NCBI GenBank assembly: GCA_026874595.1
Contig: CM049317.1
Coordinates: forward strand, 46,276,401-46,340,400
Length of the DNA stretch: 64,000 bases
Direction of reading: 5' to 3'
Source: Sipunculus nudus
Lineage: Eukaryota > Annelida > Sipuncula > Golfingiida > Sipunculidae
Below, one piece after another: positions 18,890 to 56,900 of this stretch. Made by a program: the position numbers and the translations under genes. Within the stretch, counting starts at the first letter, position 1. Every line of letters begins with the position of its first letter. Below the pieces are notes generated by a model that was not told the origin of the DNA, searched no databases, and saw only the letters and a list, made by a program, of their open reading frames with translations.

Positions 18890-20250
18890 CTATCGACTTG
18901 AGAAAAAAGAGCAGCAGGTGGCGCAATCTGTCTGGTTTACAACAAAGCTATCTAAGACGGATAAACATGCCATAATTTCAGGCTGATACATTCATCCAAT
19001 CTTCAGATATGAACGATTTTTACCCCAGCAAATAGATGGATGGACGCCACACTAAGACAACTGCAGATGGCGCCACAAGTCTCAAACAAAAGTTGGAGGT
19101 AACCAAGATGTGTGGACAATCACAATTTCAGGCCAATACGACAAATCACTTCTGAGAGAGGGGCATTTATTTAATATTCTATCAAACGGGAAGGTTGGTG
19201 GCGCCACCTGTCTGGTCTACAAGATAAATCTCCAAGATGTATGTACATATCAAATTTCATACCAATACATTGAAGAAATACTCAGATATAAGCAGTTTTC
19301 ACCTAAGAAATGTACAGATGGGCGCCACATGAAAACAATTGAAGATTGCACCGCAAGTCTTGATTACAATTTGGAGGTATCAAAGATCCATGGACAAGCA
19401 CAATTTCAGGCCGATCCAGTGAATCACTCTCGAGAAAGGGGATTAATTTATACTATGAAAGTATATGAAAGTAACAATTGCAGATGACAGTAACATTTGC
19501 AGATGACTGCACCAGTGTTGACTACAAGATAGAGGTAACCAAGATCAATAGACATGCAAAATTTCAGCCCAATATGTCCATTAGTTTTCGACTTATAATG
19601 CTCACAGTACCGTCAAGTGGAAATGATGGGGTATTAAATGGCGCAAAAAACAAGAATTGGAAAGGTGGCACCACCTGTCTTTCGCAGAAGACAACGCTAT
19701 CCAAGATCTTCTGTCAACTTGATATTTGGACTTATCCATGGATCCCTTATTCAGATATTTATGATTTTGTGTGATTTTCAATATACATGGCAATATTCAA
19801 GGTCATGGCCATTCTCATAGGAAAGGTCATGACCCAAGTATAAATATACACCATACCATAACCAATATATGTGTATATGCGAAATATAAAAGAAAAATTT
19901 GTCCGTTAGTTTATGAATTATAATGCTCACAGTACTGTCAAGTGGCAATTATGGGGGTATCAAGTGTCACAAAAACAAGAAAAGGATGGTAGGTGGCGCC
20001 ACCAATTTCCGGTACATGACAACAATATTCAAGATCTTCAGCCAGCTTGATTTCTTAATCAATCCATGCAAGATTTCTAGAGATATTAAAGAATTTGTGT
20101 GAATTTCCACCAAAATGGACTTTTCAAGGTCAAGGTCACTCCCTTTACAAGGTCACACTAGTAAAGGTAATGACCCCATATTAAATAGGCTGATTCCTCT
20201 CACCCATATCATTGCACATGTCAAGTTTGGTAAAGATTTGTGAAATATTT
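18890..20250. repeat. Degenerate tandem/dispersed repeats with GGTGGCGCCACC
   Basis: Related blocks recur, such as AATGCTCACAGTAC(C/T)GTC at about 19600 and 19920 and CAAGGTCAAGG-type blocks. Exact GGTGGCGCCACC palindromes lie at 19197-19208 and 19992-20003. A close relative is at 57590-57950. Confidence 0.65.
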
Positions 20251-20378
20251 TTTTAGTTATCTCGCCTGAAAGAAATCTCTGCAGGGGTGGCCAACCGTGC
20301 CTAAAGCATAGTATCCGAACTTTGTCTGGGGATACTGTACAATTAATTAATGTGCAAGTCTGTAGACAAAGTGTAGGT

Positions 20379-20461
20379 AAAGAGAAAGAGTGATGCCTTT
20401 TCGATAGTGTGTGTAAATATTAATAAATAAGTTAGTCTTCCAAAAAGGCATCACTCGTTCT

Positions 20462-20465
<4 letters not shown>
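20379..20465. repeat. Hairpin-forming inverted repeat downstream of the ASB gene
   Basis: Arms of about 22 bp (AGAGTGATGCCTTTT and its complement) are separated by about 40 bp, followed directly by an (AT)n tract to 20507. It lies about 175 bp past the ASB-like stop codon, possibly a small fold-back element. Confidence 0.6.
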
Positions 20466-20509
<44 letters not shown>

Positions 20510-20639
20510 CTGAAGATCAACTCCCACAGGTAATTGAGGAAATATTTTCCTTGGACTGCTAAATATAACAACCTGAAAAACTTGATCTTTGGCTTAGTCT
20601 TAGCATACCACAAATAATTTTGCAGCAAACTAGTACTCT

Positions 20640-21659
20640 TCATGGGTCTGACATTACTATCAAATGACGCAGTAAATTTGGCACCTGGAGTACATACACA
20701 CCATAAATTATATTCCCATACAGGTAAGCATGTGATCGCATGACTCTGACACAGAGATCAGAGAGGGTAGGCGGACTAGATACATATTCTTCTAACCAGT
20801 CAAGTGAGTAAGAGAACCCAGCATGTAAACTCTGCACAAAGTTTGTTATAGAAGCAGTTGGGTAGAAACCATTTTTCACAAGAAAGATGAATAAATACAC
20901 AACCAGATCTGGATAGTCAGTGGCGAGGCGTCTAAGGTCGGTCTCTATGATAAGGTGCTGATTTGATGCTTGCCTGGAGGGTTCCTTATCGGATGATTTA
21001 CTCACCACTGGTCGACATACAGTTGCTCTAACCAGCATTTTCAGCATACTTCTGTAGCACTCCCGAGGACATTTAAGAGGTGTGTATAAAATTCTGTGTA
21101 ATGGTTGCCCCCAAAACAATGTTGCTTCAAGCATCCTCCCACATTCTCCACCATTTATAAGTAACAGCTCTAATATTTGTGGGTTTGCAACATCAACAGT
21201 TATCAGCACTGACTGGAGAGTGATAGCTGATCCAGCTTTAATCAGCTCCTGTACTGAGTCAAGTCTTTGATGTTGAATTGCATGATCTATTGAACACTTC
21301 CCACATTTCTGACTGCCTGGATTGTTCACGCTGGCACCGGAGGTTATCAGTGCCTGTATGGTTTGCAGAGGATTTGTGTCTTCTACTGTACAGAAGTGAG
21401 CCAGATGTAATGGAGTACAGCCGTTTTTCCTGTGTGGTGTGTCAGGATCGGCCCCATGTTGGATCAGTATTCTGACACATTTAGGGTGACCAAGCCAGGC
21501 CGCCTGATGCAGCAAATTCCTCCTGTTTATATCATCACTAGACACAGTGCTTGCCAACAAAAGAGCTTTCAGCCTGGACACAGCATTTTCCTTTACAGCT
21601 TCCTCCACTGCTACTAGGGGCTGCTGCTGCTGCCATTTAGAGGTGAAACACCCCATCAT
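20640..21659 (-). CDS. Ankyrin repeat and SOCS box (ASB-like) protein
   Basis: Single coding exon of 339 codons; the stop is at 20640-20642. Ankyrin repeats span about residues 46-175 (RRNLLHQAAWLGH, HGADPD, GCTPLHLA, SGASVN). The C-terminal SOCS box is residues 297-337: PPTLSDLCVR is the BC-box and LQVPNLLRHL the Cul5-box-like end. ASB proteins recruit substrates to Elongin B/C-Cullin5-Rbx2 ubiquitin ligases; the substrate here is unknown. The acceptor TTCTGCAG|GGG at 21682-21683 gives a short UTR before two consecutive ATGs. The first (21659) has poor context (T at -3, A at +4); the second (21656) has A at -3 and G at +4 and would start MGCFTSK, a myristoylation-type N-terminus. I cannot assign an ASB number. 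Confidence 0.85.
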   Translation of the reverse strand: MMGCFTSKWQQQQPLVAVEEAVKENAVSRLKALLLASTVSSDDINRRNLLHQAAWLGHPKCVRILIQHGADPDTPHRKNGCTPLHLAHFCTVEDTNPLQTIQALITSGASVNNPGSQKCGKCSIDHAIQHQRLDSVQELIKAGSAITLQSVLITVDVANPQILELLLINGGECGRMLEATLFWGQPLHRILYTPLKCPRECYRSMLKMLVRATVCRPVVSKSSDKEPSRQASNQHLIIETDLRRLATDYPDLVVYLFIFLVKNGFYPTASITNFVQSLHAGFSYSLDWLEEYVSSPPTLSDLCVRVMRSHAYLYGNIIYGVYVLQVPNLLRHLIVMSDP

Positions 21660-21681
21660 GGAGTCACATTTCCTGGTTCCC
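21660..21681 (-). other. 5' UTR part of the ASB-like coding exon
   Basis: On the minus strand AATATTCTGCAG-type acceptor sequence precedes GGGAACCAGG, and 22 bp later comes the first ATG. The longer open frame that continues upstream to 21731 runs through the acceptor and is unlikely to be translated. Confidence 0.6.
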
Positions 21682-21754
21682 CTGCAGAATATAAAATTAC
21701 TGTTAAACACTGGTAAATGAATCATCCACAATTATCTATATATATGTATACTGT

Positions 21755-22180
21755 AACAAGGTGACATAAAAGCAGACCAAACTGTCTCGCTAGTGAAGCT
21801 TGGACATGTGTGCCACCAACATGGGTAAAGGCCCACAATATTTTCCCATATGCAAAATGTTTCTGTAATAAATGGGGGCTGGTCTGGGAAGATGGCAAAC
21901 TTTGTGGCCCGGGGAATGGTGGTTTGAAATAACTGGGCATTAACCACCACCTAGTTCACCGAAAGTGTGAATCCTGGGATAGTTAATCTTGTTCTGATGG
22001 CAGAATGCTCTTAAGAGGGGATGTGTTACGGGGTGACATAAAAGTCATTGAACTGTCTAGCTAATGAAGCTGGCTTTTCTAGAGAAAGGGTTGGAATGCT
22101 GGACATGTGCACCCTCTATAAGCTCAAATACCAGATCAGCCCAAAATATTTTCCCCTGTGCAAAATGTTTCCTTAACAAT
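21755..22180. repeat. Two diverged copies of a block starting GGTGACATAAAAG
   Basis: Copies at about 21759-21875 and 22034-22180 share GGTGACATAAAAG, TGGACATGTG, AATATTTTCCC and GCAAAATGTTTC in the same order, offset about 275 bp. They lie upstream of the ASB coding exon, probably in its intron. Confidence 0.7.
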
Positions 22181-22622
22181 ATATATAGATGTAGCGAATG
22201 TTAAGTCGGGAGAACAGCCGGCTTGTCTCCCCTGCGTAATATTTCTCCTCTTTTCCTTCACTATGGCATTGTTAGCATTGTCGTCTTGGCGACACTGTCA
22301 CCGGAAACCGTTTTAATCTGTCTCTCTGGTTGACTCCCCTGAATAGATATAATTTTTCAGATTAATCATTTAATATAGTTCTATATCATTAAAGTTTAGA
22401 TTTATATTTAATAGAGGTCAGAATAAAGGCGATATCAATACAATTATTATATGTATAGATCCCCACCATCTCGGGATTTGCCGAAGATGTCCGTACTGAA
22501 CGGCTATGTGGCATGAAACCTTCCCTGACCGGTTTTTGAGAAACCTAAAGCAACAATAGGACAGGTCGCATGGCATGGGAACTTGGGCGTGACGTGCCCC
22601 TACTGACGATCCCGTTAGGGAC

Positions 22623-27469: not shown

Positions 27470-27990
27470 ACAAACAAGTGGCCCATGGGCCATGACGCTC
27501 AGGTGAATGCAAGGAGCCTTGAACAATGGGCAAAAAGACTCAGAGTCAAAATCATGCATTTTGCCAATAGCCCTAAGATATAGATTACAGTGACCTTAAC
27601 CTACAGCTGCTGCTACTATTTATGCCCTCCTGACTAATTTAGTGTTAAAATCAAGTTTTTTTCACACAGCTTGTAGAAAATGGGTCAGAGTACGTGATCA
27701 TTTCAGGTCTCCAAGGAGATTTTTAGGGACCTGAAAGTCATGTATGAGGATTTTAGGCCAAATGGAAACAATTTGTGCCCCACCTGACTCACTTGGTGCT
27801 TAAAGTCATGTTTTCGTCCTAATTTGAAAAAAATATAGTTAACCATGACCTAATTTCAATTTTACCAAGGATATTTTTCATGGAACTCTAAGATGTCAAG
27901 TTAGAAGATTCTAGGCTCAACACTCATGATTTGTGCCCTGTTAATGGACAACTGCTTCATTTGAAGTTCTCAAAAATAGACATAAAAATG
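27470..27990. repeat. Head fragment of the GACCCATGGGTC family
   Basis: ACAAGTGGCCCATGGGCCAT followed by GACGCTCAGGTGAATG (about 27472-27510) matches the family head; diverged 338-bp-type text follows (CCTAATTTC, GTCAAGTTAGAAGATTCTAG). Confidence 0.55.
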
Positions 27991-27999
27991 TGTAAAAAC

Positions 28000-29190
28000 A
28001 TCGAAACTTTGAATGGACCGTTTTTGCAGTGCAAAACAGATATATGTCTCCTCCCTATGGGTCATCCTAAAACATTAGGGGTAAAATATGCAATATCTCA
28101 AAACAATTAATCTAGATCTCAGCAGATTAGACCTTGAAGGTCAAGGTCACCGCTTTTCAAATCTGATGACATTTTGGCAGAAAGAACTGGTGTGTCAAAT
28201 TTGAAGAAAAATTTACAGTACTTACAAAGTTATTTGGGTCACAATAATCCTAGAATTGCATGAATTTGACCTTGAACATAAAGGTCAAGGTGACAGGATT
28301 TCTATCACGTCCAAGATTTTGATGCGAACAATGAGCGTTTCAAATTTTGGAGGAAAATATGCAGCCCTTCAAAAGTTATCTCGTCAACAAGACAATAACT
28401 ATAATTCCACTGATTTGACCTTGAAGATCCTGGTCAAGGTCACCAGGTTTCAAACTTGTTCGAGACCATGGTAGTAAAAATGGATGTACCAAATTTGAGG
28501 ACAAAATTAGAAATACTACAAAAGTTATGGGGTTCATAAAAGTGTTACATTTCGGGAATTTTTACATTGAAGAGAAAGGTCACCAGGTTTTGAACTTGTC
28601 CGAGTACATGGTAGGAACAATTGATGTACCAAACTTGAGGACAAAATGTGGAATACTTCAAAAGTTATGGGGTTCACAAAAATGTCATATTTCTGCAGAT
28701 TTGTCCTTGAAGATGAAGGCCAAGGTCACTGTTTTTTAACTTTTCCTTGATTTTAGTAGGAACAACTGCTGCACCAAATTCGAGGACAAAATGTTTAATA
28801 CTTCAAAAGTTATGGGGTAAAAAAAAAATTACATTTTGGCAGATTTGACCTTAAGATGATGGTCAAGGTCAACGGTTTTTTGAAATTTTCCAAGAACTTG
28901 ACAGGAACAATATGTGTACCAAATTTGAGGATAAAATGGGAAATACTTCAAAATTATGGGGTTCACAAAAATTTCACATTTTGGCAGATTTTACCTTAAA
29001 GATGAAATCCAAGGTCACTGGTTTTCAAACTCCTCCAAGATTTTGGTATGAACAATTGAGTGTTTCAAATTTTGGCGGAAAATATGCAGACCTTCAAAAG
29101 TTATCGCGTTCACAAGATATCCTACAGATGAGGACGACGATGACAGACGATCGCGCTGAAAACAACATGCCTCATGGGGGGGGGGGGGGG
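28000..29190 (+). repeat. Tandem array of about 145-bp units ending in poly(G)
   Basis: Units recur at about 28414, 28561, 28699, 28844 and 28986 with the pattern GATTTGACCTTGAAG, CAAGGTCAC, AAGTTATGGGGTTCAC. It opens with a GTCTCC block and ends AAAACAACATGC then about 20 G. A second array of the same type is at 34970-35997. Confidence 0.8.
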
Positions 29191-29522
29191 GGGGGTAGCC
29201 ACCAGTCTACAGGAACTGATGAAGCACTTCCATCAAAAAGCATACAAAGAACCATAGCAATCAATGCATTAGTTATTCAAATACAGAAGCTTTTGTATGA
29301 CATTTTAATTATTCTGGGGGTACTTATACGAGCCCCATTGCTCAGAGGATATGGGTAACAGAGACCAAATTTCAGGTATCCATGAAGACAATTTTAATGG
29401 ACCTTCCTGGTCGTCAAGTTAGAAGATTCTAGGTCAATCAGAGATGGTTTGTGCCCTGTTAACAGATGATGCTTTATTTGAATGGTCTCAAAAATAGAGA
29501 AAAAATGCGTGAAAATTCGAAA

Positions 29523-31254
29523 TAAGTGACCCATGGGTCATGACGCTCAGCTGAATGGGAAGAGATTTGCAAAAGGAAATTTTATGATCTGAATGGTAGT
29601 ATATAACCATTCAACTGAAGCATCAAACAGATTAACCAACAGGCAAAGATTATGTCTGTATTTATATATCTCAAAAATAGAGAAAAAATGCCTAAACTTT
29701 AAAAAACAAAATAGAGGTGGGTCCTTTTCATGGGTCTCTCTATGCATCAAGAATGAAGATTCTAGGTCCAATTGTTATGAATTGTGCCCTGTAAACAGAT
29801 GTTCATATCTTTAATGGTCTCAAAAATGGAGAAAAAAATCGTAAAAAACCAAAACAAATACAGGTGGTGCCACCAGTCTGCAAAAACTGATGAAACACTC
29901 AATGATCAATATCCATGCAAACAATTATGGTGATCTCTGCATTAGTTGTTCAGATACTTCAGCTTTTGTATCAAATGTTCCATTATTCCGAGCTGTACTT
30001 TAGAGTGCCATAGCTCAAATGATATGGGTAACAGAGACCTAATTTCAGGTGTCCATGGAGACTTTTCATGGGTCTCCCTGTGTGTCAAGAATAAAGATTC
30101 TAGGTCAAGTCATTACAATTTGTACCCTGTTGACAGATAACTACATCCTTAAAGGTCTCATAAATAGGGAAAAAAAATTGTAAAAATTTGAAAAAATACA
30201 GGTGGCACCACCAGTCTGCAGGAAATGATGGAACACCTCTTGATCAATATGTATGCCAAAAATCATGACCACCTGTATTGTAGTTATTGAGATGTTGCAT
30301 TTTTTTAAATCAAATTTTCCATTATTCTGGGGGGTAATTGGGAGCCCCACAGCTCAAATGATATGGGTAACAGAGACCTTATTTCAGGTTTCCATGGAGA
30401 CTTTTCATAGGTCTCTCACTGTGTCAAGAATGAAGATTCTAGGTCCAGTCTTAACGATTTGTGCCCTGTTAACAGATGTCAACATTTTTAAAGACCTCAA
30501 AAACAGAGAAAACAATTCGTAAAGAATAAAAAAAATACAGGTGGCGCCACCAGTCTGCAGAAACTGATGAAACATCCCATGATTAATATGTATGCCAAAA
30601 ATCATGACCATCAGTGATGTAGTTAATGAGATATTGAAGTTTTTGTATGAAATTTTTCACTATTCTGGGGGGTACTTTGGGGCCCCATAGCTCAAAGGAT
30701 TTGGGTAACAGAGACCTAATTTCTGGTTTCCATGGAGACTTTTTATAGGTCACTCACTGTGTCAAGAATGAAGATTCTAGGTCCAGTCTTTACGATTTGT
30801 GCCGTGTTAACAGTTGTTCACATTTTTAAAGGTCTCAAAAATAGAGAAAAAAATTCGTAAAAAATCTAAAAATACAGGTGGCGCCACCAGTCTGCAGGAA
30901 CTGATGGAACATCTCATGATAAATATGTATGCCAAAAATCATAACCATCAGTGATGTAGTTAATGAGATATTAAAGTTTTTGTATGAAATTTTTTACTAT
31001 TCTGGGGGGTACTTTGGGGCCAAATAGCTCGAAGGATATGGGTAACAGAGACCTAATTTCTCGTTTCCAAGGAGATTTTTCATTGACCTCTCAGAATGTA
31101 AAGTTACAAGATTCTAAGTCCAGCGGTTACGATTTGTGCCAGGTTAACGGACAGACGGACGGGCAGACGGACGGACAGACGGACGGACAGACGGACGACG
31201 GACAAAGAGTGATCGCTATAGCTCGGCATGACTGAAAGTCAGCTGAGCTAAAAA
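29523..31254 (+). mobile_element. GACCCATGGGTC-family element with 338-bp tandem units
   Basis: Head: AAGTGACCCATGGGTCATG (palindrome at 29527-29540). Body: units whose GGTGGYRCCACC block begins at 29863, 30201, 30540 and 30877 (spacing 337-339). Tail: GACGGACGG tract (31147-31200), GCTATAGCTCGG, then GTCAGCTGAGCTAAAAA. No coding capacity. The short 3' hairpin, absence of clear TIRs and internal tandem cores resemble nonautonomous Helitron/pearl-type elements of bivalves; class is inference. Confidence 0.65.
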
Positions 31255-31933
31255 TACAGGTGGCGCAACCTGTCTGTTGGAACTAAAGAAACAGTTCATA
31301 ATAAGTATGCATGGTGAGATCATGGTGATCAATGTATTAGTTATTCACATACTGGAGCATTTGTATTAAATTTTTAATTACTCTGAGGGGAACTTATGAG
31401 CCCCATTGCTCCGAGAATATGGGTAACAGAGACCTAATTTCAAATTTCCACAGAGACATTTCATGGACCTCCCTTGATGTCAAGTAAGAAGATTCAAAGT
31501 CCAGTGGTTACGATTTGTGCCTTGTTAACAGTTGACTTCTTTGAAGGTCTCAAAAACAAAGAAAAAATCGTATAAATATGAAAAATTTCAGGTGGCGCCA
31601 CCAGTTTGCAGGAACAGGTGGAACACTCCATAATCAATATTCATGCAAAGAATCATGGTGATCAACGCAGTAGTTATTCAGATACTTGATATGTTGTATC
31701 AATTTTTTTATTATTCTAGGGGGGGGGGGGGTACTTACGAGACCCATAGCTCGGAGAATATGGGTAACAAAGACCTAATTTAGGTTTTCAAGGAGATATT
31801 TTATGGACCTCCCAGGATGCCAGGTAAAAAGATTCCAGGTCCAGCGGTTACGATTTGTGCCCTGACAACGGACGGACGGACGGACGAGTTATCGCTATAG
31901 CTCGGATAACTATCAGTCAGCTGAGCTAAAAAT
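31255..31933 (+). mobile_element. Second body-and-tail copy following directly
   Basis: Two further 338-bp-type units (block starts 31259 and 31591), another GGACGGACGG tract near 31867-31886, and a second tail GTCAGCTGAGCTAAAAATG at about 31915-31933, without a head of its own. Confidence 0.6.
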
Positions 31934-33050
31934 GATTGAAGCTGGCACCATCAGTCTTGTATACAACGAAGCTATCAGAGACATATCCATATGCCCAATT
32001 TTAGGCTGATATATCACATTCATCCGTAGGAATTAGCAGGCACATACATCGTGCAAGTCATTGTAAGAGCAACACCTGTCATGTGAACGAGAAAGCTATC
32101 AAAGACGCATAGACAGGTCAAAATATCAGCCCAATACATCAAACTTACCTTGAGTTTCTATTGTTTCTTAGATTGTTATGTTAGTATGCTTACTGGCTTA
32201 CTGGCCAAAAGACTAATTTAAAATTCCTGTAATTCGGCCAAAATTAATCAAACCAAATCCATTTGAAAAAAAACTTGAGAGAGGTGGTCTCTGGGATCAT
32301 TTCTGTGAAATATTACACTATTTGGCTGGATGAAGAAGAAGAAGACTTTCAAAGGTTTTTTTTTTTAGCTTTACCCCAATAAAATGTAAGTTAATGCAGG
32401 TGGTGCCACAAAACACTCAATCCCACAATATTTGATATATGACAGATTTTTGCATAAATTTGGGAGTGCTAGCTCCTGCTATTCCTGAGAAATTATGGAT
32501 TAATGTACTGATTACTGATGACCCCTGTACAGAAAAGGTCGATGCAGGTGGCGCCACCATTACCTTAATTTCAAATATGACTCATGTGACCATCATTTGC
32601 ATGACATTTGGTGATAATAGCCCCAGCCTTTTTTGAGATTGTGATTTTGGATTTTTTTTTTGGGGTGGGGGCAGATGACCAAGTTCAACTTCCTGTAACT
32701 CGGCCAAAAATCACTGAATTTGAACCATTCGAACAAACTTGAACCATCCGAACAAACTTGAGAGAGATTGTTCCAATAATCATTTCTGTGAAATAGTTGG
32801 ACAATATGGCTGAACAGTTTCGGAGAAGACGATTTTTTAAGGTTTTTTTTTTTTTTTGCTTTTTCCCTATAAAATCTAGGAAAATGCAGTTAGCCAAAAA
32901 ATAAGCAATATCCGATAGTTTTTTAGATGACTAATTTTTGGCAAAAAATTTGGCATGCGAGCTCCAGCCGTTTTCGAGATAGTATGGGTTAACGCACAGA
33001 CGACGGACAACGCCACACCAACGCATAAGCTCACAGGTTCGCTAAAAAGT
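31934..33050. repeat. Diverged repeats with GGTGGCGCCACC
   Basis: Related half-units at about 32220-32400 and 32690-32890 share CTGTAA(C/T)TCGGCCAAAA and GAGAGA...ATCATTTCTGTGAAATA. An exact palindrome lies at 32547-32558. Ends with CACAGGTTCGCTAAAAAG near 33045. From 33060 to 34490 nothing is recognised. Confidence 0.55.
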
Positions 33051-34969: not shown

Positions 34970-35997
34970 TTGTTTTAGCGGCGCAAAAACAGATACGTCT
35001 CCCCTCTATGGGCTATCCCAAAACATAAGGAGTAAAATATGCACTATCTCAAAACAATGATTCTAGATTTCAGCAGAATTAACCTTGAAGATCCTGGTCA
35101 AGGTCACCGCTTTTCAAACTCCGATGAGCTTTTGACAAGTACTGGTGTGTTAAATTTGAAGAAAATTTGTTCGGTACTCCCAAAGTTATGGGGTTACAAT
35201 AATCCTAGAATTGCATAAATTTGCCCTTGAAGACCAAGGTTAAGGTCACTGGATTTCGAACTCCGACAAGATTTTGGTAGGAACAATGAATGAAAATTTT
35301 GGGGTAAAATATGCAGCCCTTCAGGAGATATTGCGTACACAAGACACTAACTATAATTCGGTCGATTTGACTTGAAGGTTCCGGTCAAGGTCACCGGGTT
35401 TCGAACTTTTCAAAGAATTATGTAGAAACAGTTGGTGTATCAAATTTGAGAACAAAATATGAAACACTTCAAAAGTTATGGAATTTACAAAAATATTACA
35501 TTTCAGCAGATTTGACCTTGAAGATGAAGGTCAAGGTACTGGGTTTCGAACTCGTCCGAGATATTGGTAGGTAAATATAATGTTTCAAATTTTGGAGGAA
35601 AATATGCAGCCCTTCAAAAGTTCGCGTGCACAAGACAATAACTTTAATTTGGCTGTTTTGAACTTGAGGTTCCTTGTCAAGGTCACTGGGTTTCGAATTC
35701 CACCAAGATCTTGGTGGTAATAATTGGTGTACCAAATTTCAGGACAAAACGATAAATACTATGAAAGTTTAGAGGTTCACAAAACTTTCAAATTTTGGCA
35801 GATTTGACCTTGAAGATGGTCAAGACACTGGGTTTCTAAGTCCTCAAAGATTTTGGAATGAACAATGAGTGTTTCAAATTTTTTAGGAAAATATGCAGCC
35901 CTTCAAAAGTTCACAAGATATCCTATAGACGACAACGACGACTGACGACGATGGCACTGAAAACAACATGTCTCTCCGGGGGGGGGGGGGGGGGGGA
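34970..35997 (+). repeat. Second array of about 145-bp units ending in poly(G)
   Basis: Same family and orientation as 28000-29190, units at about 35222, 35367, 35511, 35658 and 35801, ending AAAACAACATGTCTCTCC then about 19 G. Confidence 0.8.
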
Positions 35998-36002
35998 GAG
36001 AC

Positions 36003-37353
36003 ATAACAAGTGACCCATGGGTCATGACGCTCAGCTGACTGGGAAGAGATTCGCAAAAGGAAATTTTATCATCAGAATGGGAGTATATACCCATTCAACT
36101 GAAGCATCAAACAGATTAACCAACAGGCCAAGATTTAGTCTGTATTTATATATCTCAAAAATTGAGAAAAAATGTGTAAACTTTAAAAACTATAATACGG
36201 GTAGCCGACAAGTGACTACATGTATCCGCCAAAATCAGAGTGGAACGGGTGAAATGAGGCATGGATTGAGTGGCAAGGGGAAATAGAGTGAGGTATGTTG
36301 CATATTAGCATGGATGTCTGCAGCCTAAATGTGTATGTAGGTTGTGCCACCTACCACAAATCCAGAAAGCTGTCCAAGTTGTATACATACGCAAAATTTT
36401 AGGCAGAAAAGTCAAACCACTACATGTATATAAGTGATTTTAGCCCACGGCAGACAAACAGACAGACGCTGTGCAAAAATGGTTGCAGGTGGCCCCTCCA
36501 GTTTTGTGTATGATAAAGACCTATGTGAGATCTAAACATATGCACAGTTTTGGCCAAATCGGTCAAATGGTTCCTGAGATATGAGCTTGGATGTGTGCAA
36601 CGTTAACTAGAATGTAGGTGGCGCTACCTGTCATAAAATCAAGAAAGCTATCCTGGATGTATACGCATGCCGAATTTCAGGTGAATTAGTCAATTAACTG
36701 CAGAGATATGAGTGATTTTAACCCAAGGCAGATGAACAGATGGACACTGTGCAAACATGGTTACAGGTGGCGCCACCATTTTTGTGTATGTTATAGAGCT
36801 ATCCAAGGGCTACATGTGTATAAATTTTATTTCCTGATCGGTCAAACGGTTCCCGAGATACGAGCTTGGATGTCATCAGCATGAACGTGAATGTAGGTGG
36901 TGCCACCTGTCATAAAATCAAGAAAGCTATCCAGGATGTATACGCATGACAAATTTCAGGTAAATTAGTCAATTCACTGCAGAGATATGAGTGATTTTAA
37001 CCCAAAGCAGATGAACAGATGGACACTGTGCAAAAATGGTTGCAGGTGGTGGCACCATTTTTTGTGTTTGTCATAAAGCTATTCAAGGGCTACATTTGTG
37101 CAAAATTTTAAGCCTGTTTGGTCAAACGACTCCAAAGATATGTGGGTTAATGTGTCAAAACAGATGCACAGATGGACGCATTTGAGAGAGGAAAGGTCAG
37201 AGGTCAACCCAAAATATTTAGTCACCTGTTCACATGTGACCTGATAATGGTGTAAAGTTTCGGAAAAATCTGTCCAGTGGTCGCAGTTCCATTCTAGAAA
37301 TGAATGTGGCGGCAGCAGCGTTGCTGGTGGAACCCGGTCAAAAACAGTGTCCG
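36003..37353 (+). mobile_element. GACCCATGGGTC head with nested TATCCGCCAAAA element (copy 1)
   Basis: Head ACAAGTGACCCATGGGTCAT at about 36006, then from 36223 (TATCCGCCAAAA) an inserted element with alternating units of about 130 and 148 bp, each opening with a GGTGGCGCCACC-like block (36342, 36489, 36617, 36766, 36898, 37045). The right end is damaged (GTCCGCAAAACTT, about 37340-37353). The same composite lies inverted at 43673-45027. Confidence 0.65.
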
Positions 37354-37359
37354 CAAAAC

Positions 37360-38793
37360 TTAAAATATAAAATACTAAATAATAAACTAAATTTAGAGAT
37401 ATTCAGAATGAAAACCATCATATTTAAGTCAATAACTGATTCTTGTCTTTCCTAATGATTTTACTAGGAACAAGTATTCAGTACAGTTCATCAATAAATA
37501 CTGAAATAAATACTGACCTCATTTCCATTATGCATATCTACAAACTGTACAGAATGTATGCAGGGCAAACTGTTTTGAGAAACATATCAAGTGGCTATGA
37601 TAAAATAGCCTTATATTTTAAGAGAACAGTGAGGTTTTGAAATCTGGAGAACGTAGTTCTGAGGTTGGTATGTGAACTTGTTCGCATGTATCCACATAAA
37701 AAAATTCAAAACCATTGGCACCACTGCCACAAAATATACCCGGTGTATGGACAATGAATGCAAAATGACCGCTGTAACTCCACTAATTTCCAGTCAATGG
37801 AGTTGGAAGTCAATGGAGCTAAATGGGACAAGAAAAAAGCAAAATCAGCATATAGACAGATTACGGTATTATCATAGAACTGGTCAGATCTATTCTTCAA
37901 TACGAGAGGGAAAGTTTATTTTTGTGTGGTGTGTTTCTGCTGTGCAGTGACATACTGGATATTTAACAGTAGTTTATTTGAAAAGTAGGGTGCAGCCTAG
38001 ACTGATGAAGATCTTGTATTTAACTATAAGCAGATATTGTGGCCATTTAATGACAGAGCTGCAATAGTTCATATATTGTTTGTTGATGACTCCCATTCAC
38101 ACTTACTGTAAATTAGCAAAGATGGTACATTTTTTTAAACAAGTCTTATCACAGGAACTAGCCAAATATAAAAGGCTCTATTACAAGCTTATATAAACAA
38201 TGGCTGTTAGGTGTACCTCATATGTGCTACATTCCTTTTTGATATTCAATATAGAATTTATTTATTATCAACAATCCTTGATTTTTACTCCATGAAGTGT
38301 TGACACAGCAGCCAGCATCAATCTAGTTTCTGGTCCATCTGTGAATGCACTCTGTCCCAAACCTGGCTCAGTATAAGTCAAACAGAATCCAGTCAAGTCT
38401 TGTAGAAGAAATAAATGTAAATGCTGGTGAAACACAAACTGCAATTCTTTTGATGGCCGCAGTTTCATCAGTATCACGTATGGGCCCCACTTTCCTTTAC
38501 ATGAATTGTTTTAACAATGCTATCCACCCTAAGTTCACATGACACTCTGGAGTATATTACATCAAAATCCAGTACCAGTTTTTGTTTTCCTCCACTCAGC
38601 CCCTTTCATCAACTGGTCATTTCAGCACAATGCAATATGTTTTATTCTCTGTAATGCTGTCATCTGCACATGTATCATCAGATCTCCTGTTGTGTTGTGA
38701 CTGATAACAGAAGACATGTCTGTAAATAGGGGATCTAGTAGTACAATTTCTTGGCTGAGAGACTAGTCAGTATAAAATATGTTCTTTGTCTTA
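37360..38793 (-). other. CDV3 3' UTR and downstream region
   Basis: No other gene seen. On the minus strand AATAAATAAAT at about 38253-38264 could be the CDV3 poly(A) signal, which would give a 3' UTR of about 550 bp. Confidence 0.35.
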
Positions 38794-38923: not shown

Positions 38924-41900
38924 CTGAAAGGAAAATACAAACAAATGTTATTATACACGAATTGTTTTTTCATTATACCTAGGTGATCCAATGAAACAGA
39001 TTCAGATAATTTTTTGGGTGGAGTTATATGACTAGTGATGGGCTGACATTTATAACTGATTTGATTTAAATCGATGATTGGCAGGGTTGGGTTTTATCCG
39101 GATAAAACTTGTTTAATCTAGGACAATGGATAAAACTGGGTTTTATCCAGTTTAATCCAGTTTTATCCAGATTATACAGGATTAAACTGGATCAAATTAA
39201 GAACTGCCTTGTAAAATTTAATTAAATTAACATAAATGCTTATCTGGATAAATAAGTTAAGAAGGTTTAATTGTATATTAACAATATTTAAGTTTTATTT
39301 ATCCAATTGGCAATTTCCTCCAGGTTCATGTTTCACTGTTTTCAGCACTCAGCAGCCACTGTAGCTTATACTGAACACACACCAGAATGAGGAGCAGTCC
39401 ATTTGCTTTAATGTAACTCTCCTGGCTAGTAGTCAATTTATCAATAGGATGTATCATCTTTATAGCATCATCCTCAGCCATTAAATATTTACTTATAGTC
39501 AAAGGACAGGCTTACAGGATGACTTTTGCAGCCAAATTGTCAACATCTTATAAGAGTCTCATGGAGGAGGATGCCTGAATGACTTTGATATAATGGAGTT
39601 TTCACCTCTCAGCCTGTCATGACTGGCTGGTTGTCAAAAGGAAGCCCACTGTTGCTGCTTGTGTAAACATGCCTTAAAATACCAGGGGTGAAAAGACAAT
39701 CACCTTACTACCATTCAGAGAAACCAACTTTGGCCAGATAGCTTTTCAAGCATTTTATCATTTGCATCTGAGAAGTCTCTCCCTCACAATTACAGGCAGC
39801 TGATATCACTGTTCATCTTACGTCATTTATGCAATATATGACCAGATTATGTACATGTCTCTCATTAGTAAGAATAGACGTTTATCTGTGAATATATGAT
39901 ATTCTATGGTACAACTGATTGTTTAACAAAATGTGTGAACTGCAGTTGTTTAGCTTTTTTATAGTGATGCACAAAAAAGGTGATAATGTCACAATAAGTC
40001 AAAATCATACTGACCTCTCTCAAGAAGAGAAATAATTTCCAAATTATAATTTAGATCATGGTTTCACTATCTGAGACAAAAAATGTGTTTTATGAATTCA
40101 GATAGCTAGACACAAATGTTTCTTATTAGAATTGTATTATTGTACTATGGAATGCTACACTTAATATAAAATGTCCACTTAACAGACAGTATACACCCTA
40201 ACATCGGATAAAACTGGATTAAACTTGTTTTATCCAATCCGGATTAATCCGGATTTATCCAGTGAATTAAACCAGCTGCAGATTAAACTACCAACCTTGA
40301 TGACTGGTTGATTGGTTTGACCATAAAAAGTTAGGTCCATGCACCAGTTTTCAAATCCAAGAACTAACTAGTCAATAATTTTATCATTCTGACACTCAGA
40401 GCAATCCCCTTCCCCATTCTGAGAAAAGCTACATTTTTATGTGATTTTTCACCAAATATGGAATTATGCGAGTTCAAGGCCCCCTATTGCTCTCAAGCAG
40501 TAGATATGGGATGATAGATGGTGCAAAAATCTGATCACAGGTGGTGCCATCAGCTTTCAATACATAAACTAGAATATCAGCAAAAGCTGACAAAAGCCCT
40601 CAGCCAAACGAGCAGTATGTATGGGTGGTAACAGTAACAAGTTTCATGTAATATTTGTTCTCACATGGATGGATATTTGTACATATGTCTTTGTTCAAGT
40701 TGTGAATCAGAACTAGAGAGGTATGAAGTAACTTTGTAAGTCTGTGCCGAGTCTTCGTACGTCATGCAGCACTTAAGAGATCATCAAGGCCAAAGACCAT
40801 TCCCCATTCCAACAATCCATCCAGTGGTTCCTGAGAAATAAGCTTCTAAGTCTTTAGTATAATTTGCTCTAAAATGTCGAAAAATGAGTCAAGGTCACCA
40901 ATCTTTGAACCTGACCAAGATTTTTGTTATTATACATCAGCATTGAAGAAATAAAATTTCTATGGTAAATCCTTTTCAAGATATCCCACTCACAAGGTAA
41001 ATGTTAACACATGCCATTTTTTCCCAATAATTTGCTCTAAAACGTCAAACAAGGGACCCATGGGTCACGGTGCTCAGCTGTTATACATGATAAAAATATG
41101 ATTTTGAAATGAGGCACATGCTGGTTTTGTGTGGTAATAAATATAAGCTGTATTATGAGTTGTTGGTGATTAGCTTATGTATAATTTTGATAGTTCTTTA
41201 ACAAATGGAGTGCTATTGTCAAACAAATTTTGACTTGGCCATATAACTGATAAGCAGCACATATAAGATAAGAGTTAAACTATTTATTAAAATTTAATAA
41301 CAAATATTGTGCAAAATATAATTTTTATTAAAAATAATAAGAGAATCATACATTTTTAGCTCAGCTGACTGAAAGTCATCTGAGCTATAGCGATCACTCT
41401 TTGTCCGTCGTCCGTCTGTCCGTCCGTTAACCAGGCACAAATCGTAACCGCTGGACCTAGAACCTTGTTACTTGGGATTCTGAGAGGTCCATAAAAAATC
41501 TCCTTGGAAACCAGAAATTAGGTCTCTGTTACCCATATCCTTCGAGCTATGTGGCCCCAAAGTACCCCCCAGAAAAGTAAAAAATTTCATACAAAAACTT
41601 CAATATCTCATTAACTACTTGACTGATGGTCATGATTTTTGGCATACATATTGATCATGAGATGTTACATCACTTCCTGCAGACTGGTGGCGCCACCTGT
41701 ATTTTTCGATTTTTTACGAATTTTTTTCTCTATTTTTGAGACCTTTAAAAATGTGAACATCTGTTAACAAGGCACAAATCATAAAAACTGGACTTAGAAT
41801 CTTAATTCTTGACACACTGAGAGGTCCATGAAAAATCTCCTTGGAAACCAGAAATTAGGTCTCTGTTACCCATATCCTTTGAGCTATGGGGCCCCAAAGT

Positions 41901-44900
41901 ACCCCCCCCGAATAGTAAAAAATTTCATACAAAAACTTCAATATCTCAATAACTACATCACTGATGGTCTTCATTTTTGGCATACATATTGATCATGAGA
42001 TGTTCGATCAGTTCCTGCAGACTGGTGGCACCACCTGTACTGTTTGATTTTTTACGATTTTTCCCTCTATTTTTGAGACCTTTGAGGATGCTGTCATCTG
42101 TTAGCGTGGCACAAATCGTAACGACTGGACTTAGAATCTTCATTTTCGACACACTGAGAGACCTATGAAAAGTCTCCATAGAAACCAGAAATTAGGTCTC
42201 TGTTACACATATCCTTCGAGCTATGGGGCCCAAAATTACCCCCCAGAATAGTCAAAAATTTCATACAAAAATTTCAATATCTCATTAACTACATCACTGA
42301 TGGTCATGATTTTCGACATACATATTGATCATGAGATGTTTCATCAGTTTGTGCAGACTGGTGGCGCCACCTGTATTTTATCAATGTTCATGAATTGTTT
42401 TCTCCATTTTTGAGACCTTTAAGGATGTAGTTATCTGTCAACAGGGTACAAATCGTAACGACTGGACCTAGAATCTTCGTTCTTGACACACAGGGAGACC
42501 CATGATAAGTCTCCATGGAAACCTGAAATTTGGTCTCTGTTACCCATATCCTTTGAGCTATGGCACTCCAAAGTACAGCTCAGAATAATGGAAAATTTGA
42601 TACAAAAGCTAAAGTATCTGAACAACTAATGCAGAGATAACCATAATTGTTTGCATGGATATTGATCATGGAGTGTTTCATAAGTTTCTGCAGACTGGTG
42701 GCACAACCTGTATTTGTTCGGTTTTTTTTACGAAATTTTTCTGTATTTTTGAGACCTTTAAAGATATGAACATCTGTTAACAGGGCACAAATCATAAAAA
42801 CTGGACCAACAACCTTTTATTGACACACAGGGAGACCCATGAAAAGTCTCAATGGAAACTTGAAATTAGGTCTCTGTTACCCATATTCTTTAACCCTTTA
42901 CTGTTTACAAGCCACTAAAGAGCACTCAAAATGGGCCACTAGAATGCCATGATATGTATAGATTCTCTCAGGACAAAAATATTGCATATTATTTCTAAGT
43001 TTCAATGATTTTTAATAATCTTCAGCAAACATTATTAGTTGGAACTGTTGAAAATTTGATAAAGATACAAAAAAAGCTTGAAAAGATATGGCTGTTAGAG
43101 TTAATATAAATAGTGTTAGAATTTGTCAGAAATCTAAAATAAATGTAAACAGTAAAGGGTTAAGCTGTATGGGTCCAAAATACCCCCCCCCCCCCAGAAT
43201 AATGGAAAATTTGATACAAAAACTGCAGTTTTTCAATAACTACAACACTGATGGTCATGATTTTTGGCATACATATTGATCATGAGCTGTTCCATCAGTT
43301 TCTGCAGACTGGGTGTGCCACCTCTATTTTTTTTTCAAATTTTTACGAATTTTTTTCTTTTTTTTGAGACCTTTAAAGATGTGGTTATCTGTCAACAGGG
43401 TACAAATCGCAACAACTGGACCTAGAATCTTCATTCTTGTCATGCAAGGAGGCCCATGAAAGGTGCCTGTGGAAACTTGAAATTAGGTCTCTGTTACCCA
43501 TATCCTTCAAGCTATAGGACTCCGAAGTATCCCTCAGAATAATGGACAATTTGATACAAAAACTGAAGTATCTGAACAACTAATGCAGAGATCACCATGA
43601 TTTTTGCATGGATATTGACCATTAAGTGTTTTTATTAGTTTCTGCAGACTGGTGGAGCCACCTGTATTTTTGTATCCGCCAAAACGAAGTTTTGCGGATA
43701 CTATGTTTTTGACCGAGTTCCTCCGCCGCAGCGGCGTTCATTTCCAGAGAGCTCCTCGGAGACTAATGGACCGATTTTTCCCAAACTTACACCTATTATC
43801 GGGTCACATGTGAACTGGTGCCTAACCAATTTGCATTGACCTCTGACCTTTCCTCTCTATCCAGTGTCCATTTGTGGGTCTGTTTCCACTCATAAACCCT
43901 CATATCTCGGGAACCGTTTGACCGATCAGGAAATAAAATTGATACAAATGTAGCCCTTGGATTGCTTTATAACATACACAAAAAATGGTGGCACCACCTG
44001 TAACCATGTTTGCACAGTGTCCATCTGTTCATCTGCCTTGGGTTAAAATCACTCATATCTCTGCAGTGAATTGACTAATTCACCTGAAATTCGTCATGTG
44101 TATACATCCAGGATAGCTTTCTTGATTTTATGACAGGTGGCGCCACCTACGTTCACGTTCACGCTGATGACATCCAAGCTTATATCTCGGGAACCGTTTG
44201 ACCGATCAGGAAATAAAATTTATACAAATGTAGCCCTTTGATAGCTCTGTAACATACACAAAAAATGGTGGCACCACCTGTAACAATGTTTGCACAGCGT
44301 CTGTCTGTTAGTCTGCCGTGGACTAAAATTACTCATTTCTCTGTAGTGGTTCAACATAACTGCCTAAAATTTTGCAGGTTTATACATGGTGGACAGCTTT
44401 CTTGATTTTATGACAGGTGGCGCCACCTACATTCTAGTTAACGCTGGACACATCCAAGCTAATATCTCAGGAACCATTTGACCGATTGGGCCAAAATTGT
44501 GCATGTGTTTAGATCTCACATAGGTCTTTATCATACACAAAACTGGAGGGGTTACCTGCAAAGATTTTTGCACAGTGTTTGTCTGTTTGTCTGCCATGGG
44601 CAAAAATCGCTCATATACATGTAGTGGTTTGACTTTTCTGCCTAAAATTTTGCAGGTGTATACAACCTGGACAGCTTTCTGGATTTGTGGTAGGTGGCAC
44701 AACCTACATACACATTTAGGCTGCAGACATCCATGCTAATATGCAACATACCTCACTCTATTTCCCCTTGCCACTCAATCAATGCCTCACTATCCGATTT
44801 TGGCAGATACATGTAGTCACTTGTCGGTTACCCGTATTCTAGTTTTAAAAGTTTACACATTTTTCTCTATTTTTGAGATATATAAATACAGACTAAATCT

Positions 44901-47900
44901 TGGCCTGTTGGTTAATCTGTTTGATGCTTCAGTTGAATGGGTATATACTACCATTCTGATGATAAAATTTCCTTTTGCTAATCTCTTCCCAGTCAGCTGA
45001 GCGTCATGACCCATGGGTCACTTGTTTTATTTTAATATAACTGAAATGATTATTAAAATAATATTATAGAATATATTCATGAATGCATTCATGAATACAT
45101 TTTGAAAGTATTTGCACTGGTATTCAAATACTTTCATTCTTACCTGAATTCCCATTCTTATGCAAGAAATTTTATAATGGAGTACATATTCATATTCGTA
45201 TTCAAATACATTTGCAAAGTAATCACACCTTGTTTGGTATTTATTCAGTTTTAGCCAAACAATGATGTTGAGAATCCAGAATATAAACAAAGGACCCATG
45301 GGTCACGGCGCCCAGATTAAGTTCTAAATTTTTGCAAATGCAAAATATGAAAAATATTCTATTGTAATGTTTCTCATTTATATAAGCATATGAGAAGCTT
45401 AGAGGAAAGGGGCCCTCCTACTTGGTTATAGTAAAGTTCTAAATATATGATTGCAAACTAATACTCTGACAAGACTATCATGAAAAAAAAACAGTAAAAG
45501 TTTTGAGATACTGTGATGCATATAAAAAATTTACAGATGGACAGGCAAGTGGACAGAATGGACTAATACCTTTATTTCACTTTCAAGGGAATAATGCATT
45601 TAAGTTTATATATAAGCCTATTTTTTAAGCATATCCACTTTTTCCATTAATAGTTTTTATCTGGTTCATTTTTTTTATTTACAAGTTTTTAAATTTGTAC
45701 TAAAAAAACTGAAAATATAAGTTAAAATATTAGAATTCTAAGTTGCAATCATTATATATCCAGAGTGTAGCTCATATTGGGTCATATTATGCATACACAT
45801 ATATTTTATTATTTTTAAATCAAATGTTTAAACTGAATTTAAAAGAAAATAATGCCACAACATGGCATCTACAAGATTATTCCTTGAATCCCTATTAAAA
45901 AGCTTTGCACATTAGAGTTTTCAGTACATGCTTAATTTTATTCACTGAAAAAAAATAAAAGATTCAGTAAATTTGATAAAATAAAAACATCTTTTCAAAT
46001 AAAGTACACACACTGTTGGTTGAATGAGGGACAAACAATATCATTATGCTAATAAATAGTCAATTTCACACCTGGTGAAGTTTTTCTCTTCTGAAGAAAA
46101 GCATTACTTATCTGATGAACATCCACACTTTCATAGCAATACACCACTTTGTGGACACAATTAAATGTGCACTATAATCATTGTAACCCTGGTGGTACAA
46201 TACAAAATCTAAAATGTAGCATAGCCAAGAATAAAATGAAATACAGAAAATTATAACATTCATCTAGTTATATGCACCATCTTGGGGGGGGGGGTGCAGA
46301 GCAGAGGGGAAGCTTGCTAGTAGTGGCCAAGCTGAGCCAAGGCAGGCTGCCTGGGGTGGGTTACATAATGCAAGTGAAGGCTGTACTACTAGGTGGGCTA
46401 GATGTAAACAACACTTGACATGGTGTATGAAAACTTGGATAAAAGCTACTCTTTTCAATCAATTCCTTTGAAATTTCAGATTTTTAAAGATTAAATCCTT
46501 ATGTATATATGCTGTGAAAATTAAATCAACAGTGCTTACAGGAAAAAAACGTGTCATTGCCAAAATTGGACAAAATTTAAGGTATTGATTTTTTATTAAT
46601 GCTAATAACTTGAAAAATTGGCAAAATTCAGATCTTATTTTGGGTAAACAATTGAATCTTGATTAAATAAAGTTATATTCCTGAAAAAAAAGTCTCCAGC
46701 TTCAGCAATTCTCATGTTAAGTGAGCAAATATATTTCCTAATTTTTTAAATTTTGCATTATATTTGGGCTCATAACTTCAAAATAATACCCAATACTGAC
46801 CTAATTTTTGGTATGTGCATAAAAAAGGTATGAAAGAATAAGAATACTAAATATGATCAAAAACAGATCAGTGGTTTTGATATTAGGCAGCCTTGAAGTG
46901 TAGTAATGGCTTTTTCTTATGGAAAACAGAGGTTTTTCCGTAATATCTCAAAGGAACAAAGTCCTAATGACCCAATTTTCGGTAAAGTAGGAGATTTTGG
47001 GGACATCTAATGGTATGCAGAATTTTGGATTCGTAAGTCCAACGGTTTTAAAACGTGTCCTGTTAACGAATGGACGGCCGAAAGGACGGACGGCCGACGG
47101 ACAAAGGACCACGACGATAGCTCAGATGACTTATTGTCAGCTGAGCTAAAAATGAGTCAAGGTCACCAATCTTTGAACTTGACTGAGATTTTGTTAATAT
47201 ACATCAGCACCGAAGAAATAAAATTCCTACGGTAAATCCTTTTCGAGATATCCCGCTCACAATGATAATGTTAACACATGCCTGTTTGTTTCTATAATTT
47301 GCTCTAAATTGTTGAAAATAAATCAAGGTCACTCATCTTCGAACATGACCAAGATTTTGTTAATATACATCAGCACCGAAGAAATAAAATTCCTACGGTA
47401 AATACTTTTCAAGATATCCTGCTCACAAGGACAATGTTAACACACGCGGACCGACGGACGGCTTGGGTGATGACAATAGCCCTTCAGCCTCTAAGGCTTC
47501 AGCCTCCAGGACAATCCATCCAGCCTATCTTAGGATATCTAAAGTATTGTACGGTTTTCATCTTAAGTCTCATAGTAAAGGTCATGATCAAATTTTTAAT
47601 AGGCTTGATCCTCTGACCCATGCTTATTATCTTTCCTCTATGAAATATTTTATAAGGGATCATGAAAAAAATACAAATTTGTCTAGGCTAGTGGCGAGAC
47701 AGGCTAACAACCATAATATCCCAAACTTCACAGTCTTGGGATACAATAAAGGATGCTTGTTCTTAGTAAAGCTGACAAAAGAACCCAAAATGCCAGGTTA
47801 AAACATTAAATTGGCTGGACATCCACTGCCTTGGCTTATGCTTTCTTGATTGCTGGATGATCAGGTTCTAGATTATTACAGTCTGACTAAACTACTCACA

Positions 47901-53900: not shown

Positions 53901-56900
53901 CTAACATTATGCTGAATTTTGGATTCCTAGGTCTTACGGTTTCAAAACGTGCCACATCTACGGACGGACGGACGGACGGACAGACGACGGACAATGGACC
54001 ACGACTATAGCTCAGATGACTTATAGTCAGCTGAGCTAAAAAGTGAGACATGAAAGTAAGTTTGTCATAAGGTTAGCGATCAACTGTCATTGCTTATCAC
54101 ACACATTTTGACTTGACAACAAGTCAGTTCGTGACGACGACAAACTGACGACCTGTTTCTATAACATCAATAGAATATTCATCAATAAGACAATAGGACT
54201 CAATGCTAACTACCATAGTACCAATATAGAGAGACTGATAACGTGAGCATTTACCTGTAATCAAATGATCGATCCCTTCATACCTGCTTTGAAGTTTATT
54301 GAGATTTTTATAGGGTCTGCTTCTAATTACGGTGAGCACAAGTCAGTGATCAACAAAGTGACTCAGTGTGTACTCATGGTACATCATTAATTAGCGGTTT
54401 GTGTTTGTGCAATATAACAAACAGGCTATTCAAAGGCTTGTTCAATAAAGTTATAAAAGGACCAGCTTTCTTTGATAATTAGTAATAAGATTCCCTTGTT
54501 AAGCAGAGCAAAATTGATCAATTGTTTTAAGTAAATATTGTTGTTAACTTGTAAATATTGTTGTGAATATCTTGATTATCTATAATATATACATATATAT
54601 ATATATGTTTATATATATATATATCCAGTATGTATTTTTATAATAAATAAATAAATGTTTACGTAGACATATATGCCTTGATATTCTTTGTTTTCTTCAT
54701 GCTGAGACTTAGACCACCTGAGACTTAAGACCACCTGTGACTTAAGACCACTTTTGGTGTGGCACATCAGGTGGTCTTAACTCTCAGGTTTTACTGTATA
54801 TCAGAAAAATATCGAAAATAGTCCTATTAAAAAAATACAATATCTGAAAGCTAAGGATTTGATATAATAAAATACAATTAATTTAATTTATAAAAGAAGC
54901 ACACTACAGAGAGAGTTGAAAAGGCATGTGATTCAGTATAAGAAGACTACCTTATTTGTAGATTTTGTATCCTCAGACCTGAGTAATCCTTCTCAGATTC
55001 CTGCTCAAAGTCCTTCCAGTCTTCATCCTCCTGAAAATAAAGTTACTATCTCATCAGATTAACATTTACTGACAGAGACAGCTCATCTCCTTCACATTAA
55101 TTCTACCATTATGTCAAACACACAAATGTATCTCTTCAAACGCAGTTGTGAAAACAAAAAGCAAGCACAACTAGGCATTTCTGTGCCCAAGTATCCCAAG
55201 ACAATAAAACCCCCCATGGCCTTTAAGAATACTGTAAAATCTCAACTTAAATCGGCACTTCTGATTAAAACTGCACCCAGACTTTGCCAAAATCCCAGGT
55301 GAGACACCGTGAGGGGTTCAAATACTAAGAACCCCCTTTAAACAGGCACCAATTTTTTGCTACGAAATAATTTGACATAAGACAAAATCAAGCTATACTC
55401 TAGAAATCAACACACGTAGGTTGCGACTCGGCCATTCCTGTCCACTATAAAATTCCTTAGGCATTTAATTTAAACACATCAACACACTTTTTTGCAGGGT
55501 CACTCAAGCCTGAAGTTTGGGAACACGCAAGGGCCGGTGAACCTCTTCATGATTATACAGATTTTATATGCCGTGCCGTATTCTTGTTTGCTATTGTTTT
55601 TCCTTTATATTTTGGAAAGAAATATTTTGCTGATCCATTTCAAATCACTGTATATTTGAATTCTAAAAGTATATTCTGAAATCTTATTCTATATAAAAAT
55701 TCCATTTTCTTGAATTACTCGGAAGATTTGAATCATTTTCATACTGGTTACTTCGGTATTATAATCGTCACATCGTATGTCAACATCGCTCCATGTCACA
55801 ATTTGCTGGTGCGTTTAAAAAAATGGCTGGTCAACTTAACTAAATATCAACAAACTGAAGCAACCTTGTCGAGAAACGCACGTACAGGAAACATGACGCG
55901 TGAAAACAAGTGATTTTAAAGTAAAACTAGAATACGGGTATCTGCCAAAATCAGAGTAGGACAGGTGAAGTGAAACATGTATTAATTGGCAAGGAGAAAT
56001 AGAGTTAGATGTGTTACATATTACCATTGATGACTGCCACGTAAACATGATTGTAGGTGGTGCCACCTGAAATCTGAATGAGAAAGCTATCCAGGATGTA
56101 TATGCATGTCAAATTTCAGGTGAATAAGTTAAACCATGCTGAGATATTAGTGATTTTAGCCAAAGTCAAATGAATAGATGGACGCTGTGCAAAAATGGTT
56201 GCAGGTGGCGCCACCAGTTTCTTGTATGATAAAGAGCTATGTGAGATCTTAACACATGCAAATATTCAGACAGACACGTCAAACCAGTCCGGAGATATAA
56301 GCATGAATGTCTGCAGCAAGAACCTGAATGTAGGTGGCGCCACCTGTCATAAAATCAAGAAAGCTATCCAGGATGTATACACGTGCCGAATTTCAGGTGA
56401 ATTAGTCAAACCACTGCAGAGATATGAGTGATTTTAACCCAAGGCAGACAAACAGATGGACACTGTGCAAACAAGTTGAATGGTGGTGCCACCATTTTTT
56501 GTGTATGTTATAAAGCTATCCAAAGGCTACATTTGTACAAAATCTTTTCCCTGATTGGTCAAACGAGTGCAAAGATATGTAGGTTTATGTGTCAAAACAG
56601 ACGCACAGATGGACGCACTGGAGAGAGGAAAGGTCAGAGGTCAACGCCAATTGGTAAGGCACCAGTTCACAATTGACCCGATAATTGGTGCAAGTTTCCG
56701 AAAAATCAGTCCAGTAGTCTCAGAGGAGTTGTCCGGAAACAAATACGGCAATGGCGGCAGAACCCGGTCAAAAAAAGAATATCCACAAACTTTGTTTTGG
56801 CGGATACAATTAAAGAGGCCGGTCGAGGTAAGCAAGTTTTTTTCCGGAGAAAGTTTCTGTGTGGGGGCCCATCTTGTCAAGGCAGTGTTCACGCTAGGCA

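Follow-up and report, generated by a model that had tools for sequence, protein, structure and literature searches.

The 12-bp palindrome GGTGGCGCCACC is, with a probability of roughly 0.7, the conserved block of one old Helentron-borne satellite monomer, so that its recurrence would be owed mostly to shared ancestry while its non-CpG positions are held. Non-autonomous rolling-circle transposons (Helentron-associated, HINE type) would have contained the old monomer as their central tandem repeat, and it would have diverged into families that we call A, B, C, and perhaps D. Copying of the elements may have spread it, and weak selection or biased amplification could be what holds the non-CpG positions. 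What looked like a motif common to unrelated repeats would then be a single old Helentron-borne monomer whose core changes slowly, an idea that can be tested.

The palindrome has 13 exact sites in the 64-kb window, the whole stretch of DNA analyzed here. An earlier, sequence-only reading had listed these 13 copies; all are present, 12 where it put them and one at 56204 instead of 56203. It had also noted near copies, and 12 one-mismatch sites do stand beside the exact ones. Exact and one-mismatch sites total 25, against a mean of 0.02 and a maximum of 1 in 100 dinucleotide shuffles of the window, which rules out chance recurrence. By the family labels that we assigned from the site listing, 10 of them fall in A, 11 in B, 3 in C, and 1 in D. 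The form GGTGGYRCCACC fits 22 of the 25, and in 9 of the 12 single-mismatch copies the change is a transition within the central CpG (C-to-T or G-to-A). When up to three mismatches are allowed, the whole window holds 43 sites, and none of these lies in the seven other repeat stretches that we tested. The palindrome is not "GC-only," as had been written of it, having T at position 3 and A at position 10.

Family A arrays lie inside elements that have the anatomy of HINEs, or non-autonomous Helentrons. The elements and arrays are the following.

29521..31258, minus strand: element A1, Helentron-like; 3' part at 29521-29713, 338-bp array, then GTCC microsatellite and 5' subTIR to 31258
29724..31148, plus strand: 338-bp tandem array of family A in A1 (TRF, nhmmer); sites at 29863, 30201, 30540, and 30877, unit orientation plus
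27475..31935, minus strand: putative outer and older element A3, interrupted by element E and by A1
41352..45027, plus strand: element A2, Helentron-like; 5' subTIR TAGCTCAGCTGAC at 41357, IR, GTCC microsatellite, array, inserted B element, then 3' subTIR and palindrome to 45027
41423..43671, minus strand: 337-bp array of A2; sites at 41686, 42024, 42360, 42697, 43311, and 43651, some decayed

At their 5' ends, the family A elements carry TTTTTAGCTCAGCTGAC, a partly complementary repeat, and then the GTCC microsatellite; at their 3' ends, GTCAGCTGAGC is followed by TGACCCATGGGTCA. Several features place them with HINEs. First, the subTIRs, which in HINEs measure 11-15 bp, are GCTCAGCTGAC (5') and GTCAGCTGAGC (3') in A2, and the 3' end of A1 agrees at 10 of 11 bases; the 3' part of A1 (29521-29713) thus pairs a GTCAGCTGAGC-like subTIR with the palindrome TGACCCATGGGTCA. 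Second, TGACCCATGGGTCA is exact at 29527, 36011, and 45007. Third, the 5' IR is GTCATCTGAGC (10/11), with (GTCC)n before the arrays. Fourth, a T-rich or TT target is seen at one empty site, by comparison of A2 with 51755-51815 in a paralogous element, where a T run masks the exact insertion bounds, so that a target duplication cannot be read from it. The array pieces of A3 lie within 27700-28018, 29198-29530, and 31249-31872, its microsatellite and 5' subTIR extend to about 31930, and its 3' palindrome is likely the match near 27479 (2 mismatches), by which we place its 3' end.

Elements are nested in the window, A1 in A3, B in A2, and A2 in another element. Related elements at 45287-47150, 51438-54040, and 60355-62232 have subTIRs of the same class as A2 and 3' palindromes and are nested with A2; the tested stretches of these three contain no site of GGTGGCGCCACC at up to three mismatches. 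Another element type, with 145-bp tandem units and T-run/G-run ends, occupies 28020-29197 and 34972-36003, and a palindrome lies at or next to the point where one copy of it breaks the outer A3 array. An apparent miniature element with inverted ends, TTAACCCTTTACTG ... CAGTAAAGGGTTAA, sits in the A2 array at 42890-43163, and we take it to be piggyBac-like. The A arrays are also low in CpG, with observed/expected ratios of 0.27 (29724-31148) and 0.33 (41423-43671), whereas the ratio is 0.53 for positions 1-18000, 0.50 for B, and 0.43 for C; methylation-linked decay may account for this.

The layout of element A has known counterparts. In the oyster Crassostrea gigas, the scheme given for Cg_HINE in the accessible part of PMC7492417 runs through subTIR, IR, GTCC/GTCY microsatellite, satellite-like array, and 3' subTIR plus palindrome, the same order as in element A when the two are compared by description rather than by letters. 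Cg_HINE arrays, in contrast, consist mostly of 140-180-bp monomers, against 338 bp in family A, and some of those monomers differ save for two shared conserved segments (PMC7492417, same part). The DINE-1 and HINE elements of arthropods resemble the present ones in having subTIRs, a 3' stem-loop, a microsatellite, central repeats, and TT targets; their sequences, as far as the accessible part of that source goes, are different, and an array palindrome of the present kind is not among the features described there (PMC4067079). Finally, the bivalve satellites BIV160/Cg170/HindIII, as portrayed in excerpts of PMC5139131 and PMC11136912, come close to the present families in these respects: their monomers measure about 160-170 bp and have two conserved segments, and many are tied to Helitrons. 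Identity with BIV160 itself was dropped. Two published BIV160 primers matched the window with 8 and 7 mismatches at best, no better than shuffled primers, in what is a weak test.

Family B forms elements of its own. Its unit of about 280 bp consists of two half-units, 129-149 bp apart, and its copies are the following.

43672..44835, minus strand: element B copy in A2, 5' end approximate; 3' hairpin GTATCCGCCAAAACGAAGTTTTGCGGATAC at 43672; sites at 43987, 44136, 44267, 44416, and 44693
36198..37361, plus strand: element B copy; sites at 36340, 36488, 36617, 36766, 36896, and 37045; 3' end incomplete, 5' end approximate
55930..56812, plus strand: element B copy; sites at 56056, 56204, 56333, and 56482; ends TATCTGCCAAAA and TTTTGGCGGATA

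In two of the three copies, the inverted repeat TATCCGCCAAAA (at most one mismatch) stands at both ends, and in 36198-37361 at the 5' end only. The 3' hairpin has a fold energy of -10.8 kcal/mol (z -6.9). Element B is thus Helentron-like, with fewer HINE features examined than for A, namely the inverted repeats at its ends and the 3' hairpin. Families C and D are represented by these units.

18917..20187, plus strand: degraded family C units; sites at 18917, 19066, 19197, 19664, and 19992
31941..32150, plus strand: two more family C units with decayed palindromes
57528..57950, plus strand: family C units, palindrome decayed at 57677
32399..32700, plus strand: family D, two units; an exact site at 32547 and one with 2 mismatches at 32399

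Relatedness of the families can be judged apart from the palindrome. With the palindrome masked in both query and target (nhmmer profiles), the B profile picks up C units (E 1e-11, 3e-7, and 2e-5, with others weaker), and conversely B units are matched by the C profile from E 4e-10. The A profile has one match in the C region, at 57864 (E 0.005), and A is otherwise linked to B and C by weak in-register matches (E 0.12 to 0.69). Profile-versus-profile comparison of only the sequence downstream of the palindrome gave scores of 50.0 for B-C and 28.0 for A-C (columns 1-103 on both sides), each reached by 0 of 120 shuffles, and 20.0 for A-B (18-100/17-100, in register), reached by 2 of 120. By sequence comparison, then, A, B, and C are related without help from the palindrome, B and C strongly and A more weakly, along roughly 100 bp of downstream sequence that aligns in one register. 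For family D the scores were 11.1 with A, 11.5 with B, and 8.3 with C, and 15, 1, and 12 of 120 shuffles, respectively, were as high; its reverse-complement controls scored 15.5, 15.0, and 7.5, so that the true scores are the lower ones for A and B. Over the 60 bp upstream, the best B-C alignment is in register, yet 24 of 100 shuffles score as high, and the best A-B and A-C alignments are out of register (27 and 1 of 100 shuffles as high). The second half-unit of the 338-bp repeat, compared with the palindrome half, was equaled by 11 of 100 shuffles against A, 74 against B, and 3 against C.

These comparisons recast what had been read from the letters alone, namely that different repeat families have the palindrome in common and that the text after it differs. 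The families do differ in letters, but recurrence is mostly relatedness, since A, B, and C align with the palindrome hidden, and their differing downstream text is related in register. That the families might align end to end as one had also been raised; A, B, and C align along some 100 bp of downstream sequence, not end to end, and upstream no in-register alignment beats shuffles. Independent acquisition of the palindrome by unrelated repeats is ruled out for B and C and unlikely for A, given the homology of the masked profiles.

Descent could also be the entire explanation. The palindrome would then be functionless and would look conserved owing to a common ancestor, homogenization of the arrays, and the fact that a few sites were noticed first. 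We consider this a serious contender, somewhat short of an even chance, and the relatedness of A, B, and C without the palindrome speaks for it; the rates of change speak on both sides. For these, units were gathered by palindrome-masked profiles, with seeds anchored on palindrome matches and rows found by their flanks, and a row was used if it spanned 10 or more of the 12 palindrome columns (12 of 19 in A, 9 of 10 in B1, and 8 of 8 in B2). The seven A rows left out comprise two with half a palindrome, 29198 and 27853 (poorly aligned), both at borders of the E insertion, one with a single column, and four with none; the B1 set includes one C-type row, which raises its variation.

Pairwise difference over the ten non-CpG palindrome columns is 0.064 (A), 0.150 (B1), and 0.118 (B2), compared with 0.27-0.28 in other GC and 0.16-0.22 in other AT columns elsewhere in the units (0.278 and 0.163 in A). 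These columns thus vary 4.0, 1.7, and 2.2 times less than the composition-matched expectation, and composition-matched sampling gives uncorrected P values of 0.0012, 0.061, and 0.028, respectively. Such a deficit of 1.7 to 4 times against matched columns is not what pure descent would predict, although the slower change in B1 falls short of significance (P = 0.06), as that reading would have it. The central CpG is not protected and varies like other CpGs (0.42, 0.40, and 0.50 versus 0.38, 0.50, and 0.37 in A, B1, and B2). The worry, raised beforehand, that the 12-mer mutates like its flanks is therefore borne out at the central CpG, but not at the ten other positions, which are slower in A, less clearly so in B2, and not significantly so in B1.

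Further in favor of pure descent, other 12-bp windows within families equal or surpass the palindrome in conservation. If the CpG is kept, those at least as conserved number 36 of 320 in A, 27 of 137 in B1, and 50 of 138 in B2, counting the palindrome itself and its overlaps; without the center, they number 3 of 297, 9 of 114, and 18 of 115, the palindrome not counted. Between families, on the other hand, it is the top window of the consensus, at 0.85-0.88 versus a mean of 0.42, followed by a second block, GAGATAT, at 0.69, while the rest of the family consensuses is 0.32 to 0.77 identical in pairs. This between-family comparison is biased, because C and D units were partly picked by their likeness to the palindrome and D is only two units.

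We therefore favor an old Helentron-borne monomer whose non-CpG core positions are held, and a protein site is possible at this core because the ten non-CpG positions in A change more slowly than their flanks. Slower change of the two palindrome arms would fit a two-fold symmetric site, to which a dimeric protein, host or transposon-encoded, could bind as arrays or elements undergo copying or rearrangement. This binding step we offer tentatively, as a hypothesis that more probably fails than holds. The core TGGCGCCA is common to E2F-like sites; that identification was set aside because CpG decay would break such a site. Were a protein to bind the core, the case would be relevant to a standing question about satellites, namely why their monomers retain short conserved segments.

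The sequence-only reading had suggested, besides a protein site, a replication or a recombination signal. As a hairpin or cruciform signal for rolling-circle replication, the palindrome would draw on its perfect two-fold symmetry and on the use of short palindromes at Helentron 3' ends, as recounted in portions of PMC7492417 and PMC4067079. Yet when single-strand DNA fold energy is compared with that of shuffles, two palindrome sites give z values of 0.0 and -1.5, versus the -6.9 of the element B 3' hairpin, and the site listing, surveyed by eye and unscored, shows no copy with a compensated non-CpG change. Fold energy alone is no strict test, because the 3' palindrome of element A, TGACCCATGGGTCA, also folds weakly (z -0.44). 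The suggestion of a hairpin or replication signal finds no support in a palindrome that folds little or no better than shuffles, and we regard it as highly improbable.

The recombination suggestion fares better in part. Array joins and new Helentron insertions might favor the palindrome, so that monomers carrying it are re-amplified. In array A, a palindrome coincides with four discontinuities or is no more than about 10 bp away from them, namely the insertions of A1 into A3, B into A2, and E into A3 and the join between the A1 array and its 3' part after GGTGG; binomial P values run from 0.001 to 0.013 across counts of 6, 7, or 8 discontinuities and zone widths of 32 or 44 bp. A parallel exists in the satellite phBglII400 of the clam Ruditapes philippinarum (GenBank U80936), where, in the accessible part of PMC5139131, 13 of 16 array junctions occur at a 12-bp palindrome; like the present families, it has an internally repeated monomer with a 12-bp palindrome, a likeness at the level of description. 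Against this, the discontinuities are a tiny sample judged post hoc and by eye, two of the insertions sit in a T run adjoining the palindrome and TT is the preferred target of published Helentrons (PMC4067079, as far as its accessible text goes), and a G run blurs the E boundary. Moreover, the array 5' end lies elsewhere (at GTTAAC, identical in three elements and counted once), the piggyBac-like insertion and the break at 27780-27853 are away from the palindrome, and the target sequence of A2 itself lacks it. A landing or breakpoint core thus seems unlikely to us; of the recombination suggestion, the four junctions stand, weakened by their small number, their post hoc choice, and the T run. 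Three nested insertions in the window do lie at or beside the palindrome. In a stronger form, the palindrome would be a recognition site, kept across long-diverged satellites, for a protein of Helentron copying or targeting, with arrays serving as amplification units and landing pads, which we find quite improbable.

If it marks an old Helentron-borne monomer, the palindrome may serve as a marker sequence for tracing this monomer family in other genomes. A looser pattern search returned three viral contigs, each having a single motif site in surroundings that look unrelated by eye; a stricter pattern had 0 matches in the viral and 0 in the prokaryote contig collections, as expected for such collections. 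The exact 12-mer occurs in one endochitinase paper of the open-licence literature and was not found in the open-licence repeat papers, in a search that covered text outside figures and supplements, the usual place of satellite sequences; close forms occur in 22 papers, with no molluscan-repeat title among the 20 listed. An RNA-gene identity of the repeats was dropped, as they gave no Rfam match at gathering scores and no tRNA. Elsewhere in the window are two very uniform tandem arrays, one of 144-bp units at 48384-49477 (96% matches) and one of 50-bp units at 49745-50026 (93% matches), and, on the minus strand at 20640-21731, an open frame of 363 amino acids in which Pfam recognizes ankyrin repeats (E 4e-13).
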